From Bacteroidota bacterium (GTDB lineage: Bacteria > Bacteroidota > Bacteroidia > NS11-12g > UBA9320): a DNA stretch of 56,572 nt. Below, in pieces: positions 3,090 to 56,572 of this stretch. A program made the position numbers and the translations under genes. How positions within the stretch are numbered: position 1 is the stretch's first letter; each line of letters opens with the position of its first letter. A model generated the notes under the pieces. That model was not told the DNA's origin. It searched no databases and saw only the letters and a program-made list of their open reading frames with translations. Where the stretch lies: positions 274,404 to 330,975 of the forward strand of contig JABWCE010000001.1 of the NCBI GenBank assembly GCA_013359235.1, given 5' to 3'.

Positions 3090-3779
3090 ATGAAAATTAC
3101 CAAAAACAGAAAAGCAGTAATTGCAAAATACGATAAGACAAAATCATACAGCCTGAAAGAAGCTTCAGAAATTGTAAAAAACATTAGCTTTACAAAATTT
3201 GATTCTTCAGTTGATATTGATGTTAAACTTGGGGTTGACCCACGCCAGGCTAATCAAATGGTTAGAGGAAGCGTTTCTCTACCACACGGTACAGGCAAGC
3301 AAATAAAGGTTTTAGTATTGTGTACCCCTGATAAAGAGGAAGAGGCAAAAGCAGCAGGTGCAGATTTTGTAGGACTTGACGACTATATTGAAAAAATTTC
3401 GGGAGGATGGGTTGATGTAGATGTTATAATAACAATGCCAAGTATTATGGGAAAATTAGGAAAACTTGGAAAAATTTTAGGACCACGTAACCTTATGCCA
3501 AACCCCAAAACCGGTACTGTTACCGTTGAAATTGGTAAAGCAGTTCAGGCAACAAAAGCAGGTAAAATTGATTTTAAAGTAGATAAAACCGGCATTATAC
3601 ATACTTCCGTTGGCAAAACCAGTTTTAACCCCGATAAAATATACGAAAATGCAAAAGAAGTTTTAGATACAATTGTAAAATTAAAACCTTCTTCATCAAA
3701 AGGCACTTATATGAAAGGTATAACAATGTCAAGTACAATGAGCCCTGGAATTAAAATAGATGTTAAATCAGTTATTTAA
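3090..3779 (+). CDS. rplA: 50S ribosomal protein L1
   Basis: L1 forms the mobile stalk near the E site and in many bacteria represses its own operon by binding mRNA. The 229 residues match the family. The motif [13 protein letters not shown] (about 131-143) is intact, as is the C-terminal [11 protein letters not shown]. It sits between rplK and rplJ. I looked for an L1-type operator ahead of rplK but could not identify one by eye. Confidence 0.97.
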
Positions 3780-40474: not shown

Positions 40475-40540
40475 TTTTTTAAATGATATTTTGCAACATA
40501 TTAAGATTTAATGTGTCTAATCTGTAAACTTTAATTATTT

Positions 40541-43500
40541 ATGAAAATAAAATTACAAATTTCTATTTTTTTACTTTTAACTTCCTTTTTATCAAATGCC
40601 TCCCACTATATTCAAGGCGAAATCAATTATGTTTATCTTGGAAACGAAAAATATGAAATTAGACTACTATTAAGGCGAGATTGCAGAGCAGTAGGTTTAC
40701 CTTTGCCTTCATATACCTTGAAATGTGAAAATACAGGCAAAACAAAAAGCCTTTCACTTACATTGTTTTCAATAAAAGAGGTTACAGAATTATGTAAATC
40801 GGCCTCAAAACAATGTAATCCACCCAATACTTACGGCACAGGTAATGGAGTTGAAGATCATTTATATGTTGATACAATTGATTTTGGTGGTGCTGATTCA
40901 GCATTTGCTTCATGTTGTACTCTTTCATTTCATTTTGGAGCATGTTGCAGAATGGGATCAATAACAACCGGTGGACAATCATATAATTTTTATATTTATT
41001 CATTTTTAGAAAGATGCAAGGCAAAACAAAATTCTTCACCCGTTTTTTTAAATATTATACCCACAACATATACTTGCAATAATCCTTTAAAAATTAGTTA
41101 CCTTGCTACTGATGCAGATGGGGATTCATTATCCTATTCATTAGTTAACCCACTTTCAGGATGGTATTCATCAATTTCTTGGAATAAAGGTTTTAGCGCC
41201 AAAATGCCATTAACGCCATATTATCCGGCAGGGTATAATAAATCTAAAGGACCCAATCCAAATAATAATCCCCCAATTGGTTTATATTTTGATTCGCTAA
41301 GTGGTTTCTTAATTACAACACCTACCGATTGCAATGAATTTACTAATCTGGCAGTAAAGGTTGAAGAATGGAGAAAAGACAGTGCCGGCAAATACAATAA
41401 AATTGGTGCAATAACAAAAGATATGGCTCTTGCTTTTGTAAGTTCAAATAATAATACGCCTTTAGTAACTTCTAATACAAAGTCTCCGGTTTCTGCATGT
41501 GGAGGCGAAAAAATAACTTTTAATGTTTTTACATCAGACAATGCCTTCAAACCTACTCCACCCGGCAAACCAATTTTAAACGATACTGTAAAATTAATTT
41601 GGAACAATCCAATAAATAATTCAAGTATAAAACTTGACAGTAGTTATGTTAAACAACAATCTGCTATTTTTGAATGGACACCTAATGTAGCTGATACTAA
41701 CAAATTGCCATTTCATGTTTCGTTCAAAGCTATTGATAATGCATGTAATTATAGCAGTTCGTCATATTATGATTTTTCAATAAAAGTATATCCAAAAATT
41801 AAAATTTCTAATACAATTAATAAAATTAATTCGAATGTTTTTGCTTTAAAAATAAATATAGGAAATAAGAAATATCCTTATATGGTAACAAACAATGTAA
41901 AAACAAGCTATCCCTATGATACTCGTGCTTTTTACTTTAAATCGAGCAAACAAGTAACATCTGATTTAGAAAATGATACGGTAGTATTTTTGAAAAACGG
42001 TACATTTATTATTAATCAGTTTTTCATTTCAAATATTTTATGCAACCAACAAACAATTTCTGATACAGTTACTGTAAGCAATTTAATTGAAGCTTCAATT
42101 TCCAATAATTCTGATACAACAGTATGCAACAACATAAATACCAATTTTTATTGCAAAACATATAATGCACAAAAACCAATAACTTTTACTTGGAAAACTA
42201 AAAACACCACACAAATTGATACACTTGGATATTTCAGTAGTTCATTCACACAACCTGATACAGTTTTTGTAAGCATAAAAGACGCTAACGGACAGGTTGC
42301 AAATACTTGGGTGAAAATTAAAATTATTGATTTGCCTCAGATAAATGCTGGCGAAGACAAAACAATTTGTGTTGAAAACCAAACTCAATTAGTTGTAAAA
42401 AACATAAACAGAGATACTTTAACATGGAAATGGACTTTTAACAAAGCTTTTTTATCTAACAAAGACACATTAATTGCAAATGCAGAAGGATTGTATATTG
42501 CTTGGGGAACGAATAAATACAAGTGTACAAACTCAGATACTGTAAAGTTAAGCCATTTTGTAACAGAAAGAGTTTCGCTTATTTCAGGCAGATATTGCCA
42601 AGGAATTAAATCAATAAAACAAAATGAAATTTTTACAAACGACCCTAATATTTTTCCTGTTTTGCAATGGTCAACCCTAAAACCATTGAAAGATAATTTT
42701 GGAAATAGTATTGCTCTAAACAAAATTGTTTTTGATGAAGACCTTGGTGCAGGTTACAAATATTTGCTTTATTTTGGCAATGACCTTGTTGACCTTGATA
42801 CACTCTGGGAAGATTCGCTAAAATACATTGTAAAAGCATGGGATAAAAACAACTGTTTATCTATTGATACCGCTACGATATCAATTATAAAAATGCCCGA
42901 AATTGAATTCGGCTTGCCAAATTATTCTATTTGCAGAAATGATACTCTTAATTTAAACAATCTGGTAATTACTAAAGGGACTAAATCATGGTTTCCTATA
43001 AATAATGCAGGTTTTGAACAGTGGCCTATTCCCGTATCAACTGAAATAAACAATGGATTTTTAAAACCAAAGTTTTTTAAGCCTTCGGGAGGAAAATATC
43101 AAACAGAATTGATTTCAAAATACGATAAATGCTTTGAAAAAGACACCTTTGATTTGATAATATTTCCTAATCCTGTTCCTGTTTTAAATTATGCAACAGA
43201 TAAAGATTCAATTATAATACTCGATAATTCTTTGCATACAGATTTTCGTAAATGGTACTTGAACGGAACAGCAAAAGGTACAGGAAAATCAATTGTTTTT
43301 TCAAAAACCGATATTGATAAAAAACCAATAAAATTAGAACTTGGAAATTCATATAGTTGCTATGCTGATACTGTATTTTTTATAAATAATGTAAATGTTG
43401 CAGGTATTAATAAAAGTAATATTAAAATTTACCCCAATCCGGCAATAGACTATCTTCATGTACATTTATTTCAATCTGTTGTTAATGCTAAATGGAACAT

Positions 43501-43654
43501 TATCGACATTACAGGCAAAACTATATTAAAAGGGGAAATTACAGGTTTTGAAAGCACTTTGAAAATATCAAAACTTAAAGCAGGATTTTATTATCTTAAT
43601 ATTTTTAATAACGATTTAATACTTTCAGTTCCGTTTATCAAGATTGAAAATTAA
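40541..43654 (+). CDS. large T9SS-secreted surface protein, paralogue 2
   Basis: The 1037-residue protein resembles its upstream neighbour throughout. It has a signal peptide ending FLSNA, then GEINYVYLGNEKYEI, RRDCRA, CNPPNTYGTGNGVEDH, YPAGYNKSKGPNP and EWRKDSAGKYNKIG. Later modules match too (PVPVLNYATD corresponds to the PIPKISFNQT segment of paralogue 1). The C-terminal sorting domain (about 965-1037) reads IKIYPNPAIDYLHV and AGFYYLNIFN. It begins 66 bases after paralogue 1, most likely as a tandem duplication that has diverged widely in the middle. A TTTTG lies at 40489-40493, but no good -7 element follows at the right spacing. Confidence 0.83.
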   Translation: MKIKLQISIFLLLTSFLSNASHYIQGEINYVYLGNEKYEIRLLLRRDCRAVGLPLPSYTLKCENTGKTKSLSLTLFSIKEVTELCKSASKQCNPPNTYGTGNGVEDHLYVDTIDFGGADSAFASCCTLSFHFGACCRMGSITTGGQSYNFYIYSFLERCKAKQNSSPVFLNIIPTTYTCNNPLKISYLATDADGDSLSYSLVNPLSGWYSSISWNKGFSAKMPLTPYYPAGYNKSKGPNPNNNPPIGLYFDSLSGFLITTPTDCNEFTNLAVKVEEWRKDSAGKYNKIGAITKDMALAFVSSNNNTPLVTSNTKSPVSACGGEKITFNVFTSDNAFKPTPPGKPILNDTVKLIWNNPINNSSIKLDSSYVKQQSAIFEWTPNVADTNKLPFHVSFKAIDNACNYSSSSYYDFSIKVYPKIKISNTINKINSNVFALKINIGNKKYPYMVTNNVKTSYPYDTRAFYFKSSKQVTSDLENDTVVFLKNGTFIINQFFISNILCNQQTISDTVTVSNLIEASISNNSDTTVCNNINTNFYCKTYNAQKPITFTWKTKNTTQIDTLGYFSSSFTQPDTVFVSIKDANGQVANTWVKIKIIDLPQINAGEDKTICVENQTQLVVKNINRDTLTWKWTFNKAFLSNKDTLIANAEGLYIAWGTNKYKCTNSDTVKLSHFVTERVSLISGRYCQGIKSIKQNEIFTNDPNIFPVLQWSTLKPLKDNFGNSIALNKIVFDEDLGAGYKYLLYFGNDLVDLDTLWEDSLKYIVKAWDKNNCLSIDTATISIIKMPEIEFGLPNYSICRNDTLNLNNLVITKGTKSWFPINNAGFEQWPIPVSTEINNGFLKPKFFKPSGGKYQTELISKYDKCFEKDTFDLIIFPNPVPVLNYATDKDSIIILDNSLHTDFRKWYLNGTAKGTGKSIVFSKTDIDKKPIKLELGNSYSCYADTVFFINNVNVAGINKSNIKIYPNPAIDYLHVHLFQSVVNAKWNIIDITGKTILKGEITGFESTLKISKLKAGFYYLNIFNNDLILSVPFIKIEN

Positions 43655-51445: not shown

Positions 51446-51635
51446 CTTCAAATTCTATTAAACAAACCTTTTTTTTATTGAAATAAATTTGATATTTGTA
51501 TTTTTAAAATAATACATCAATACAAAGTAAATCAAACAAATTGATTAAAAATTTAAAATTTGAAGCAACATATTTAGATTGATAATAGTCTTGAACCTAA
51601 ACAATCAAAAAAATAAAAATGAACAATTAAAATTG

Positions 51636-52181
51636 ATGAGTGATGAAGAGCTTATTAAAGGTTGTGTCAAAGGTAATGAAAAATATCAGTTTGAAGTTTA
51701 CAAGCGGTACTCACCCAAAATGTTCGGTGTTTGTCTCAGATATTGTGCAAACAGAGAAGAAGCACAAGATGTGTTGCAAGATGGATTCATCAAGGTTTTT
51801 AACAAAATTGATACATTTAGATTTACAGGTTCGTTTGAAGGCTGGATAAGAAGGATCATGATTAATACTGCAATTAGAAATAAATATATACATTTCAGAA
51901 GTCACGAGTTGAACAATATTGATATTATTGAACCACCATCGGTTGACGAAAAAATCACATCAGATTTGTCATATACAAGCCTGATGAAACTCGTAAACGA
52001 ACTTCCACATGGTTACAGAATTGTTTTTAATATGTTTGCAATTGAAGGATATTCGCACAAAGAAATAAGCGAAATGCTTCAGATACAAGAAGCAACATCA
52101 CGTTCGCAATATTTGAGAGCAAGAAAAATGTTAAGAGATAAATTAGAAAAGATAGAAAGCAATGAGTTCAAAAATAAATAA
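51636..52181 (+). CDS. ECF-type sigma-70 factor
   Basis: From the ATG at 51636 this 181-residue factor begins MSDEELIKGCVKGNEKYQFE. In-frame TTG codons at 51579 and 51591 could add 19 or 15 residues. Region 2 is clear (YKRYSPKMFGVCLRYCANREEAQDVLQDGFIKVF and GWIRRIMINTAIRN), as is region 4 with its helix-turn-helix (LPHGYRIVFNMFAIEGYSHKEISEMLQIQEATSRSQYLRARKML). There is no region 1 or 3, as expected for ECF sigma factors. The next gene overlaps it by 20 bases and encodes an anti-sigma-like/barrel fusion, its likely regulator. Target promoters are not known. Confidence 0.92.
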   Translation: MSDEELIKGCVKGNEKYQFEVYKRYSPKMFGVCLRYCANREEAQDVLQDGFIKVFNKIDTFRFTGSFEGWIRRIMINTAIRNKYIHFRSHELNNIDIIEPPSVDEKITSDLSYTSLMKLVNELPHGYRIVFNMFAIEGYSHKEISEMLQIQEATSRSQYLRARKMLRDKLEKIESNEFKNK

Positions 52182-53505
52182 TGATATAGAAAAAATACTT
52201 TTGCAGGGTGCAAAAAACTATGAAGAACTGCCCCCCGAACAAGTATGGCAAAAAATTAAAAAAGGCAAAAACAGCCGCTATGTGTTCTTTTTAAGATTTC
52301 ATAAATGGCGTATAGCAGCATTTATAGCACTTGTAGCAATGGTAAGTTCAGGGTTTTATTACTTTAAAATTTCACAAAAAGTGAAAATTTCAAAAACAGA
52401 AGTTAAAAAAGAAAGTTTCATAATTAATACTCCTGAAATTGTTTCTCAAAACCAAATTGATGATAATAATTCAATATCTTCAAATAAATATTCAGAAGAA
52501 TTTATTGATAAAAATGTAACTAACAGTAATCATACCGCGAAAGAAAATCAAAATAACATTTCAGTAAATAATAATTCAGAAAAAAACATTGAAGAAAACC
52601 AAGATAAAAATATTGTAATAACAAATGAAGAAATATTTGAAAACACTAATAAATTCAACATTTACGAGATAATTTCAAAAGAAATAAAAGGATTGAAATA
52701 TTCAACCATTCCCATTTTTGAAAAATATACACCAGTAAACAAAAAATTTCATAAAAACTGGATAAAAAACAAAAATGAAGGTAAAGACAAAATTGTACCT
52801 AAAGGCTTATACTCTATTGAAATTGGCGGAGGTCCATCGTATGCTTTCAGAAACTTATCAGGCGGAAATTACCTATTGAGAAACGAATCTGAAAAAGCAA
52901 TGATTTCATTTCAAACAAATGTAAAAGTGAATTATCATTTGAACCCAAAATTTTCTGTTCAAACCGGTATTTCTGTTGAAACACGTAACGAAAAATTAAA
53001 TTACAACCACACCGAATTACAGAAAAAACTTGTAGAAACACCAAGGGTAATTACAGTTTTTCACCCTGTTTTGCCTCCTAAAAATATTACAGTAATAGAT
53101 ACAAGTTATATAAATCAAACAGTGAAATACGATTTTGAGAATATAAATAAATATACAACTTTCAATATCCCGTTACTTTTTGGTTATAACTTTGGAAACA
53201 GCAAACTACAATACAGAATTTCGGGCGGTACTTTAATTAATATTTTTTCATCAAACAATGCAAAAATTGTTGAAAAAAACACAACAGAAACAACATTGGT
53301 TAATTACAAAGAAGCAAAAAAAATTAATCCTTCGATATACACAGCCGTTGGGTTAAATAAAGTAATAAACAATCATTACAGCATTGTATTTGAAATGTCG
53401 TATTACCGAAATATGCTAAACAGACTTGGTAGCGAATCAAACATAAAACAAATAAATTCAGGAATTAATTTTTCATCAGCAATAAGATACAATTTTTTAA
53501 AATGA
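52162..53505 (+). CDS. anti-sigma-like inner-membrane segment fused to outer-membrane barrel
   Basis: The 447-residue protein has four parts. Residues 1-48 are cytoplasmic and resemble the short N-termini of Bacteroidota anti-sigma proteins (LPPEQVWQKIKKG). One membrane helix follows (about 50-69). Residues about 70-215 are Asn/Lys/Glu-rich and probably extended. Residues about 216-447 are a PorT/OmpA-like beta-barrel domain (YSIEIGGGPSYAFRNL, FSVQTGISVETR, FNIPLLFGYNFG, a final AIRYNFLK). One chain could thus connect sigma factor, inner membrane and outer membrane. The gene overlaps the sigma gene by 20 bases and the next gene by four. Which sigma-binding residues matter is not known. Confidence 0.7.
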   Translation: MSSKINNDIEKILLQGAKNYEELPPEQVWQKIKKGKNSRYVFFLRFHKWRIAAFIALVAMVSSGFYYFKISQKVKISKTEVKKESFIINTPEIVSQNQIDDNNSISSNKYSEEFIDKNVTNSNHTAKENQNNISVNNNSEKNIEENQDKNIVITNEEIFENTNKFNIYEIISKEIKGLKYSTIPIFEKYTPVNKKFHKNWIKNKNEGKDKIVPKGLYSIEIGGGPSYAFRNLSGGNYLLRNESEKAMISFQTNVKVNYHLNPKFSVQTGISVETRNEKLNYNHTELQKKLVETPRVITVFHPVLPPKNITVIDTSYINQTVKYDFENINKYTTFNIPLLFGYNFGNSKLQYRISGGTLINIFSSNNAKIVEKNTTETTLVNYKEAKKINPSIYTAVGLNKVINNHYSIVFEMSYYRNMLNRLGSESNIKQINSGINFSSAIRYNFLK

Positions 53506-55007
53506 GAAAGACATTGTCAATATTATTAATTATGGTTTGTTGCGGATTGAACGCCCAACAGGATAACTGTATTTTAAAATCAGGACAATTAAATTTAAGA
53601 ATTAATTCTGACGGAAGACTTGCCGTTTACAATTCAGAGCCATCTTCAGAATTTGTAGAAGGTAGCAATAACCATTTATTCAAATTTATAAATGTTTGGA
53701 TTTCGGGATACGACACATTAAGCAACTTGTACATTACTACTGTAAACGAATTTGCAAACAAAAATGATTACAGCCAAGGACCTATTGATAGTCTTACAAG
53801 TACAGGTTCAGAGCCTGATGATTTTAGAAAAGTATGGCATGTAACTTCTGCCGACATCAATCAACATTTAAAAAATTTCGCAAAACCAGGTTACACACCC
53901 AAAGATGATATAAAAACATGGCCTGCAAATGGATTTGCAAGATTTAACAAATACCTCGCCCCATTTGCCGATAATGACAAAAATGGAAAATATGAACCCG
54001 AAAAAGGCGATTATCCTTTGATAGAAGGAGACAATGCCGCATTTTTCATTTTAAATGACAATTATGCTGAACATAAAGCATCGGGCGGTCAACCATTGAA
54101 AATTGAATTGTACTGTATGCTTTATTCTTACAACAATTTACCAAATACGGTATTTGCTAAATATTACATCAAAAATCTAACAAGTACTGATTATGAAGAT
54201 ATAATAATATCAATAAACACCGCTTTTGAACTTGGAAATTCAAACGACAATTATTGCGGAACATCAGTTACGGCAAATTCAATATTTACGTACAATGGCG
54301 ATGATAACGATGAAAATCATTTCGGAAAAAACAAACCGATAGCATTTATTTCATTTTTAGGAAAAAATATAAGTTCATCAGCTTACATTACAAACGATAC
54401 TGATACTTTATCAGGAATGCCAACTACACCCCAAAGCCACAGATATACAATGGAGGGCAGATGGAAAAATTCAAAAAATATAAGTTTTGGCAATGATGGC
54501 AAAGGAAATAATCAAACTTCAAAATACGTTTATTCTGGCAATACAGACCCAAACTTTGCATCGCAAACATGGGTTGAAAATTCTTTAGCCGGAATGAGAA
54601 CTATGCTTGCAAATACCGAAATAGGACAACTTAAATCAAAAAGCCATATAACCCTTGATTTTGCCATTAGCGGAATTGATAACACAGATAAAAATCCATA
54701 CGATTTTGTATTTGAAAAATCAAATGAAATAAAAAATGTATGGCTTGCAAAAAGTGCAACAATAAAAAAAGTAGAAGATGTAGAAAAATTGTTAATAGTA
54801 AAAAACCCAATACATCAGGGAGAAAATATTTACCAATTTGAATATAAGAATTTTGATAAGATATCGTTGATAAACAGTTATGGAGTATTGATAAAAGAAA
54901 TAAATCCAAAAATAGAAAACGAGCTGAAATTGTACGACACGGGATTGTGTTTCATCAAATACTATTATGAGAATCAAGTTTATATAAAAAAATTAGTAAT
55001 AATTTAA
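53502..55007 (+). CDS. T9SS-secreted protein with divergent sorting domain
   Basis: The 501-residue protein has a signal peptide (MRKTLSILLIMVCCGLNAQ). The N-terminal half includes FRKVWHVTSADINQHL and an Asp-rich FADNDKNGKYEPEKGDYP (about 158-175), a calcium-binding-like loop seen in other T9SS cargos before a beta-sandwich. The last about 75 residues form a drifted type A sorting domain: KNPIHQGENIYQFEYKN, ISLINSYGVLIKEI and DTGLCFIKYYYENQVYIKKL. It starts within the stop of the anti-sigma/barrel gene (ATGA overlap), so it belongs to the sigma-factor operon and could be a partner or cargo sensed by it. No enzyme motif is visible. Confidence 0.78.
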   Translation: MRKTLSILLIMVCCGLNAQQDNCILKSGQLNLRINSDGRLAVYNSEPSSEFVEGSNNHLFKFINVWISGYDTLSNLYITTVNEFANKNDYSQGPIDSLTSTGSEPDDFRKVWHVTSADINQHLKNFAKPGYTPKDDIKTWPANGFARFNKYLAPFADNDKNGKYEPEKGDYPLIEGDNAAFFILNDNYAEHKASGGQPLKIELYCMLYSYNNLPNTVFAKYYIKNLTSTDYEDIIISINTAFELGNSNDNYCGTSVTANSIFTYNGDDNDENHFGKNKPIAFISFLGKNISSSAYITNDTDTLSGMPTTPQSHRYTMEGRWKNSKNISFGNDGKGNNQTSKYVYSGNTDPNFASQTWVENSLAGMRTMLANTEIGQLKSKSHITLDFAISGIDNTDKNPYDFVFEKSNEIKNVWLAKSATIKKVEDVEKLLIVKNPIHQGENIYQFEYKNFDKISLINSYGVLIKEINPKIENELKLYDTGLCFIKYYYENQVYIKKLVII

Positions 55008-55033
55008 ATAAAATTTTTAATTTAGCGCAGTTT

Positions 55034-56572
55034 ATGGTAAAAACATTACAAAACAAATTCAAAACAAACTCAAAAGGTTTTATCCTAAAAATTTTAGGAA
55101 TTTTTATGCTCTTAGGTGTATTATCATCTAATGTGAAAGCAACACACATGATGGGAGCTGATATAACATATTATTGTCTGGGAAACAATAAATTTAATAT
55201 CATCATAAAGCTATACCGAGATTGCAGAGGTGTAGCTATTGGAGCTCCTTCATCAACTATAACTTGTGCAAGTAACAACAATACTATCGCTTCTTTTACC
55301 CCTACAGAAATAAAAGTAAGAGATATTACTCCTACATGTTCATCAACAGGTAAGGCTTGTAATCCTCCAAACACTTATGGAACCGGTAAAGGTATTGAAG
55401 AGCATACGTATTCATATACTTACGATTTTACAACTGTGAAAAAAAATGGATGTTGCAGAGTGAGAATCGGTACAGGTCAATGTTGCAGAAATGGAGCTAT
55501 TACAACTGGTGCAGCAAGTGCTAATTTCTTTACTTATGCAGAGTTTGATATATGCAATGCAAAATGCAACAGTTCTCCATCACTTACTACAGAGCCAATT
55601 GCTTTAATATGTTGTAACCAACCATATTACTACAATAATGGGGCTTCAGATACTACAGATTTAGATTCTTTATCTTATGAATGGGGAAACCCTTTACAAA
55701 GCTGGGGTTCAAATACAACATGGAGTGGTTCATTCAGTTCAAAAATGCCATTCTCGGTTTATTGGCCCTCAGGATATGATAAATCAAAAGGTCCAAAACC
55801 GGATGCTAATCCACCTATTGGATTATATCTTGACCCCGAAACAGGTGACTTGATTTTTACTCCCACAGATTGTAACGAAAGTACTGTTGCAGTAATACAA
55901 GTAACAGAATGGCGAAAAGATTCATCAGGTAAATGGAAAGATATAGGTGTTACAAGGCGTGACGTACAGTTTTGGGTAGAAACCTGCCCCGGAAATAATC
56001 CTCCAACTTTAAACGGACCATATAAGTATGATGTTTGTGCCGGTAATGCAATTTGTTTCACAATAACATCAGACGATAAACAATTTATACCACCACCTCC
56101 CGCCAAAGCAAATCCTCCTGACACAGTGCGATTGACATGGAACAGAGGTATTCCTGGCGGTACTTTCACCATTGTTAACACAAAAGCAAGATTACAAAGT
56201 GGCAAATTTTGCTGGACACCCAAAAAAAATCAAGCCAGTGATTTGCCATATACTTTTACAGTTACAGCCCGCGACAATTCTTGTCCTTTGAATGCAGTAA
56301 CAGTAAAATCATATTCGGTAAAAGTAAAACACATAGCCGAAGCAGACAGAAATGTTGATACATTTGCCTGTGGTAAATATTATGTAGAAAGCAATCCATT
56401 TCCCAATTTTAAAGGTTCACCTTCATATTTTTGGGAGGTAACAGATACCAACAATCAGCTTTTGAATAAAAGCTATTATTACTTTAAGCCGAGCAATAGC
56501 TTGTATTCAAACAAAAAATCAGATACAATTCAGTTTCGCAAAGGTGGCAAATACATTATTCATCACCGCATA
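55034..56572 (+). CDS. large surface protein, paralogue 3 (cut by window end)
   Basis: The frame is open from ATG 55034 to the last base (513 codons) and is truncated only by the window. It has a signal region (about 18-36, ending SSNVKA), then THMMGADITYYCLGNNKFNI, LYRDCRG, NPPNTYGTGKGIEEH, WPSGYDKSKGPKP, PPIGLYLDPETGDLIFTP and EWRKDSSGKWKDIG. These match paralogues 1 and 2; the Cys-rich CCRVRIGTGQCCRNG segment is closer to paralogue 2 and the IPPPPAK segment is closer to paralogue 1. It lies 26 bases after the T9SS cargo gene, so it is likely the fourth gene of the sigma operon. A T9SS sorting domain is expected beyond the window but not seen. Confidence 0.85.
   Translation, partial: MVKTLQNKFKTNSKGFILKILGIFMLLGVLSSNVKATHMMGADITYYCLGNNKFNIIIKLYRDCRGVAIGAPSSTITCASNNNTIASFTPTEIKVRDITPTCSSTGKACNPPNTYGTGKGIEEHTYSYTYDFTTVKKNGCCRVRIGTGQCCRNGAITTGAASANFFTYAEFDICNAKCNSSPSLTTEPIALICCNQPYYYNNGASDTTDLDSLSYEWGNPLQSWGSNTTWSGSFSSKMPFSVYWPSGYDKSKGPKPDANPPIGLYLDPETGDLIFTPTDCNESTVAVIQVTEWRKDSSGKWKDIGVTRRDVQFWVETCPGNNPPTLNGPYKYDVCAGNAICFTITSDDKQFIPPPPAKANPPDTVRLTWNRGIPGGTFTIVNTKARLQSGKFCWTPKKNQASDLPYTFTVTARDNSCPLNAVTVKSYSVKVKHIAEADRNVDTFACGKYYVESNPFPNFKGSPSYFWEVTDTNNQLLNKSYYYFKPSNSLYSNKKSDTIQFRKGGKYIIHHRI

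Follow-up and report, generated by a model that had tools for sequence, protein, structure and literature searches.

Organization of the locus

The window analyzed here is a stretch of 56,572 nucleotides from a Bacteroidota bacterium (NCBI GenBank assembly GCA_013359235.1, contig JABWCE010000001.1, positions 274,404 to 330,975; GTDB lineage Bacteroidia; NS11-12g; UBA9320). At its end, the list of open reading frames (ORFs) contains a run of four genes on the forward strand: a Das-like extracytoplasmic function (ECF) sigma factor (51636..52181), a Dma-like fusion of 447 aa that is predicted to join an anti-sigma segment, a tether and a barrel across the envelope (52162..53505), a type IX secretion system (T9SS) type A cargo (53502..55007), and the 5' portion of a gene for a giant surface protein of T9SS type B (55034..56572). 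The end of the sigma gene overlaps the start of the fusion gene by 20 bp, the end of the fusion gene overlaps the cargo start by 4 bp, and 26 bp lie between the cargo and the giant. A previous sequence-only reading of this DNA had reported these overlaps and this gap; its positions are exact in the ORF list and its observation is confirmed. It had also proposed that signaling could dispense with a TonB-receptor relay, and there is no TonB-receptor gene among the genes of the operon.

The sigma protein matches Pfam Sigma70_r2 (3.8e-15) and r4_2 (2e-13), with general ECF matches only in NCBIfam. Its ORF could also open at TTG 51579, but this start was rejected because the codon is covered by a conserved ECF-type promoter motif (GCAACA-N17-GTCT, 51565..51591, forward strand). 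The motif leaves 44 bases to ATG 51636, which is therefore the likely start.

The giant gene is cut by the end of the window, which is the end of contig C4. The same 99 bases (window 56474-56572; the end of L085 and the start of L086) close contigs C4 and C44 and open contig C9, and the interruption is an assembly break in a repeat common to two giant genes. On C9, the giant frame stays open for 1064 codons up to a type B sorting domain, and a second giant (1271 aa) comes after it. The type B domain was checked in two giants, namely the C9 continuation (TIGR04131, 36.8 bits against a cut-off of 35; CHU_C, 42.1 bits) and a complete relative in genome G006 (37.7 and 44.9 bits, respectively). Together with the type A domain of the cargo family, it upholds the proposed link to T9SS proteins. 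Because the 99-mer is common to C44 too, the join of C4 to C9 is supported mainly by gene order in relatives: the complete relatives L057, L059 and L060 encode giants of 1549-1553 and 1261-1266 aa in the same order. Six giant paralogues of 476-1191 aa, one of them cut by a contig end, are present outside the operon in the same genome.

Conservation of the operon within the order

Matches to the fusion were found in 20/38 genomes of the family (single protein, E 0.001) and in 65/108 genomes of the order (profile, 1e-10), the latter including part matches and other barrel proteins. Fifty-eight fusion-profile loci were read, and exclusion of nine other Dma-like loci (L172-L179 and L183) left 49. 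Since these were fetched for fusion or cargo matches, the counts describe cargo-type loci and not all genomes; L062, whose fusion has an internal stop, is counted among them. A sigma gene is located upstream of the fusion in 47/49 loci (including L063, at 322 bits; L070 and L170 lie at contig ends), in agreement with the pairing of the two that had been proposed. The earlier reading had staked its case on the presence of both T9SS genes in homologous loci, and this was what was found: the cargo adjoins the fusion in 48/49 loci, and a protein matching the giant profile comes directly after the cargo in 40 of these 48. For the others, the giant follows a 90-aa antisense ORF after the cargo (L061) or lies a few ORFs beyond it (L160, L166 and L167), the contig ends after the cargo (L073 and L164), or no giant is present in the stretch fetched (L161 and L162). 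The gene joints are short or overlapping in most loci, and the order sigma-fusion-cargo-giant is kept across two families of the order. Gene order, its conservation and the domain content of the products can be seen directly in these loci.

The same genome also contains a second Dma-type operon (L282 395-3572; G000:C6), and the gene after it encodes a protein bearing a signal sequence. In L173, a relative of this sister system within the genus, the third gene encodes an 810-aa T9SS type A protein, and L174 also has an 810-aa gene.

The putative anti-sigma/barrel fusion

The family alignment of the fusion (A1, 21 members) displays a conserved N-terminus, one hydrophobic stretch, a long region of little conservation, and a conserved C-terminal domain. 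In the window, these correspond to a putative cytoplasmic sigma-binding segment (residues 1-48, 52162..52305), a single predicted inner-membrane helix (about residues 49-68, 52306..52365), a polar, poorly conserved tether (about residues 69-211, 52366..52794), and a probable beta-barrel domain (about residues 212-447, 52795..53502). The residues of the window fusion that are invariant in A1 are M1, R240, G269, R275, E277, N329 and P337, and all except M1 fall within the C-terminal domain. At a Kyte-Doolittle (KD) threshold of >=1.6, one helix is found in 17/21 relatives and two helices in none; in the window fusion and three others the helix peaks at 1.42-1.59, the window value of 1.59 being just below the threshold. 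The tether measures 101-214 residues in the 17 relatives measured, of which 65-80% are disorder-promoting by composition only, and the tether of the window member was seen in the alignment. A single transmembrane helix and a long disordered tether, as in Dma proteins, are thus predicted for this family.

For the C-terminal domain, a genome search with PF13568 gave 33.3 bits (cut-off 27) at window 52816-53412, whereas a scan of the window protein itself returned only PF13505 at E 0.002, below cut-off. Among the 21 family members, nine match PF13568 and seven match PF13505 at E<=0.01. The family-averaged alternation of hydrophobic and polar residues in this domain was reached by 0/2000 shuffles, and single members exceed a z of 2 in 13/21 cases (2.29 for the window fusion), although such alternation fits any beta-sheet. 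At the profile level, the domain is consistent with a beta-barrel. The topology given in the earlier reading, with a cytoplasmic N-terminus, one helix, a long polar tether and a C-terminal barrel profile, is therefore borne out by alignment, hydropathy and PF13568. When the fusion alignment was searched as a profile against the PDB, the matches were ATP synthase subunit b (E 0.0055 and 0.0063) and two membrane proteins (E 0.044 and 0.25), all of which were judged to be due to chance.

Other barrel proteins were encountered in these searches. L277 1417-3511 (G000:C28) holds three separate genes, namely an ECF sigma-like frame, one for a helix-bearing protein of 265 aa and one for a PF13568 barrel of 304 aa; this set could represent the Dma design in unfused form. 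Additionally, five loci (L172, L177, L178, L179 and L183) encode barrel proteins of ~410 aa that match the fusion profile and have no sigma neighbor; genes of ~392 and ~300 aa follow in four of the five, and in L172 the frame after the barrel gene is truncated where the contig starts.

The T9SS cargo and its occurrence beyond the order

The cargo has an N-terminal signal sequence (by eye), and the type A sorting domain TIGR04183 is found at E<=0.01 in 18/19 members of its family. The window member is the sole miss, with an E of 0.094 when searched alone. Against the PDB, the cargo family profile matches 8glk_D (1.1e-8) and 8glj_D (5.3e-6), the latter annotated as 'Por secretion system C-terminal sorting domain-containing protein'. 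These features indicate that the cargo is a T9SS type A protein with a predicted signal peptide and a type A C-terminal domain. The cargo profile is widespread, matching 104/108 genomes of the order at 1e-20, and among the matches listed for these genomes it often lies inside a frame of ~1300 aa. One such protein of ~1300 aa with the cargo core domain (L090 1747-10565; G000:C39) is encoded between a TonB-plug-like protein, whose plug match is below cut-off, and a PorV/PorQ-family protein, and the same three-gene set is present in L091 and L092.

At 1e-66, the cargo profile matches 62/296 genomes of the class, eight of them from this order. Twenty cargo loci outside the order, mostly the best-scoring, were fetched, and the sigma-fusion-cargo trio is present at nine of them, in four families; the other 11/20 are without the trio. 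No giant lies directly after the cargo in the nine trio loci. The sigma-fusion-cargo trio is thus conserved beyond the genus, with giants added in this order, and this is new. A tree was built from 72 cargos, of which 56 are linked to a fusion and 16 are unlinked; in it, linkage requires two changes, compared to a mean of 14.6 for shuffled labels (0/500 as low), although near-copies among the 72 favor such clustering of labels. One origin of linkage is recovered in only 28% of bootstrap trees. Two paralogues of the window's own family that are unlinked (L180 and L181) group with cargos from other families that are likewise unlinked, but support for this grouping is weak. Taken together, this distribution suggests that fusion and cargo are the older unit, to which giants would have been added in this order. 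A different arrangement is found at L309 5497-10784 (G180), where two cargos surround one sigma-fusion pair (cargo-sigma-fusion-cargo); the second cargo, before sigma, was labeled unlinked in the tree.

Promoter motif and predicted targets

The promoter pattern was defined from 26 upstream regions, of which 23 match. The class GCAACR-N17-GTCT is present at the matching place before sigma in 41/46 loci, compared to a mean of 0.2 and a maximum of 3 in Markov-resampled controls, and the spacer is 17 in 39 of the 41. This set of 46 includes L173 and L174 of the sister system, neither of which matches, and excludes L175 and L186, for which the anchor was not found. All 18 operon loci that were unread when the pattern was defined match it (18/18), although their independence is incomplete because they share genera with loci already read. 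An ECF-type motif before the sigma gene suggests that the sigma factor may autoregulate its own operon.

Across the same genome, 12 motif matches were found, compared to 6 in a reversed control. Four of the 12 lie at a gene start: this operon, two genes of the giant family, and one DUF7948 protein. The first giant is within the window (40541..43654, forward strand), is a T9SS type A paralogue (Por_Secre_tail 1.5e-9), and has the motif (40493..40518, forward strand) 23 bp upstream; the second is on C44, with 21 bp to its ATG. The DUF7948/SBBP protein, on C37, has a signal sequence and the motif 29 bp upstream. The remaining matches are inside genes (seven) or 162 bp from an ORF (one). Given the observed match density and 60-bp windows, the chance of finding the motif before two of the six giant paralogues outside the operon is 2.8e-7. 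The conserved promoter motif and its recurrence before other giants are direct observations and are new, and these giants are predicted to be members of the regulon.

In the other six genomes of the genus, 12 regions were picked by eye for AT-rich spacers from 103 motif matches, and the motif is 23-32 bp before a gene start in eight of them and not in four. It precedes giants by 23 bp in G003 and G006 (profile scores of 1387 and 1400 bits), DUF7948-type genes by about 29-31 bp in G002, G003 and G007 (Pfam on the G003 protein), and beta-lactamase-like genes by 25-32 bp in G004, G005 and G006 (Pfam on the G004 and G006 proteins). The beta-lactamase-like proteins with the motif directly before them are at L232 2555-3568 and L238 1905-2921 (both PF13354) and at L239 1622-2638 (by likeness). 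Matches to the local form of the motif in the second family, CCACGW-N13-15-GTGTCT, include ten before the operon and two before giant-family genes in G048 (237 and 231 bits); one further match is 57 bp before a long ORF, and six are inside genes, over a coding start, or distant from genes. A scan for further targets with one mismatch allowed gave 14 matches compared to 8 in the control and was not used.

Comparison with known systems

The fusion shares its architecture with the Dma/Das systems that are known from Bacteroides thetaiotaomicron (Pardue et al. 2024, 2026). According to the 2026 Dma2 paper (PMC13088901), the N-terminal domain of Dma2 is followed by a helix, then a disordered tether and finally a barrel, and its adjacent cognate sigma factor is needed for the deletion phenotype. 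Deletion of dma2 raises das2, bt_1556 and bt_1557, with strong induction of its neighbors, and Dma proteins are described as confined to Bacteroidota. The work on Dma1 and Dma2 deals with vesiculation and polysaccharide utilization loci (PULs), and deleting the genes beside dma2 is reported to have left vesiculation unchanged; the words 'T9SS' and 'type IX' are absent from the main text of the Dma2 paper. The earlier statement that the mechanism of such sigma/barrel pairs is not worked out is thus outdated, since envelope-spanning Dma anti-sigma factors with cognate Das sigma factors are already published.

Dma2/Das2 and the window locus have in common an adjacent ECF sigma gene, an N-terminal segment, one helix, a disordered tether and a C-terminal barrel, as well as an operon under its own sigma factor, which for the window is suggested by the promoter motif. 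Downstream, the window locus continues with a type A cargo of the T9SS and with type B giants, whereas the genes beside dma2 encode DUF4943, DUF4858 and an enzyme-like protein. The Dma/Das envelope-spanning design is known, and its pairing with a T9SS cargo and giants is new. B. thetaiotaomicron itself is not known to possess a T9SS. No paper joining a Dma system to a T9SS cargo was found by title or abstract start, in a search that left most subscription journals and preprints outside its reach.

In FecIR-type surface signaling, the state of the outer membrane controls an ECF sigma factor via an inner-membrane anti-sigma factor. That arrangement needs a separate TonB-dependent receptor, whereas the window locus would place sensor and anti-sigma factor in one chain. 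Published work on Porphyromonas gingivalis places PorA, a surface protein with a T9SS C-terminal domain, upstream of PorXY-SigP. This system, like the window locus, has an ECF sigma factor tied to the T9SS and a T9SS C-terminal-domain surface protein; unlike it, PorXY-SigP is a relay of sensor kinase and response regulator with no envelope-spanning anti-sigma factor. In the motif SM6 regulon of Flavobacterium psychrophilum, promoters of the ECF type likewise precede T9SS genes and genes for a sigma/anti-sigma pair, while a GTC in the motif and surface proteins as targets set the window locus apart from it.

Proposed mechanism and alternatives

Overall, the locus is probably a Dma/Das-type switch with T9SS surface proteins as its output and the cargo as its constant partner. 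Residues ~1-48 of the fusion would keep the ECF sigma factor bound at the inner membrane. The fusion would cross this membrane once and continue through the periplasm as a disordered tether to a barrel in the outer membrane. Release of the sigma factor would follow from a change at this barrel, and the free sigma factor could then drive transcription of its own operon and of further giant T9SS surface proteins with similar promoters. The cargo may either feed back on the barrel or belong to the output. Sequestration and release of the sigma factor are proposed here by analogy with Dma1 and Dma2, and insertion into the outer membrane, the signal, and any contact between cargo and barrel are inferences. 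Taken as a whole, the interpretation offered by the sequence-only reading is partly supported.

Several results weigh against this interpretation. The N-terminal segment of the fusion has no family match in Pfam or NCBIfam. AlphaFold, run with two sequences each, gave a pLDDT of 27.6 for the whole fusion and 26.7 for the barrel alone, so that the barrel is supported by profile and not by model. Kinship with Dma1 and Dma2 is drawn from architecture and not from a match of sequences; one contig scan aimed at a Bacteroides Dma yielded one close relative only. One locus (L075, in G009) has the order sigma-fusion-giant with no cargo. The exact promoter motif is absent from three operon loci (L061, L074 and L075) of the 46 examined, and from seven of the nine trios outside the order; two of the nine have the exact pattern, and most of the others share its -35 half (by eye). 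Genus-wide, the motif has 115 matches compared to 62 in the reversed control, a less than 2-fold excess, and the local form of the second family has 19 matches in 11 genomes compared to 13. Because these excesses are small, the case for a regulon rests on the position of the motif and not on its number. The second Dma-type operon of the same genome has GCAACC-N17-GTCT upstream of the sister sigma (by eye); targets are therefore not assignable to one sigma factor by the motif alone, and cross-talk is possible. Finally, a terminator-like inverted repeat lies between the first and second giants (L086, about 3228-3263), and the second giant may therefore be transcribed separately.

Within the proposed switch, the role of the cargo can be read in two ways. 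It is quite possible that the barrel senses the state of outer-membrane assembly or lipids as envelope stress, and that cargo and giants are merely switched on. The work on Dma1 and Dma2 points in this direction, since it concerns vesiculation and PULs and deletion of the dma2-adjacent genes had no effect on vesiculation; so do the locus without a cargo in G009 and the 11 cargo relatives without a fusion outside the order. However, four additional families keep the cargo beside the fusion with no giant after it, and the tree groups linked cargos together; neither observation favors a cargo that is output only.

A more tentative reading is that the cargo binds the outer face of the barrel and thereby controls release of the sigma factor, such that the switch would read T9SS delivery. 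The constancy of the cargo makes it the first candidate partner of the barrel, and PorA sets a precedent, in that a T9SS C-terminal-domain protein can influence an ECF sigma factor. Additionally, the trio fusions shown carry a proline-centered loop (about residues 298-329) that is shortened in L282, L173, L174 and L176, four of the five compared paralogues that lack this cargo; this hint is weak, as the comparison was made by eye on few paralogues, and the fifth, L175, retains a longer loop. Retention of the switch without a cargo in G009 also speaks against docking. At present, a cargo that is output only is slightly more likely than a cargo that acts as ligand.

It is improbable that the C-terminal domain is instead a soluble periplasmic beta-domain and the fusion an ordinary single-pass anti-sigma factor. 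The often weak barrel matches of single members and the lack of a usable AlphaFold structure would fit such a domain, but the genome search places the window's PF13568 match above cut-off, the strand alternation exceeds that of 2000 shuffles (though any beta-sheet would fit), and the layout is the same as in Dma proteins. That the genes are simply neighbors with no functional link is very unlikely: giant paralogues do exist outside the operon and cargo relatives are common in the order, but the gene order is kept in two families, the trio recurs in four more, most joints are short or overlapping, and one conserved promoter motif precedes the sigma gene.

Implications

Returning to the Dma/Das-type switch, a rather doubtful extension is that the cargo is a dedicated outer ligand or gate, in which case one polypeptide would report surface T9SS delivery to transcription and so set the supply of giants. 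If the cargo does act in this way, the system would be a one-protein secretion checkpoint. In the literature consulted, Dma proteins have so far been studied in one gut species, mainly with regard to vesicles and polysaccharide loci. The present locus links this design with T9SS surface proteins across two families of its order, and the trio extends the link to four other families of the class. With a defined promoter motif, a short target list and a candidate ligand, what a Dma barrel senses becomes directly testable.

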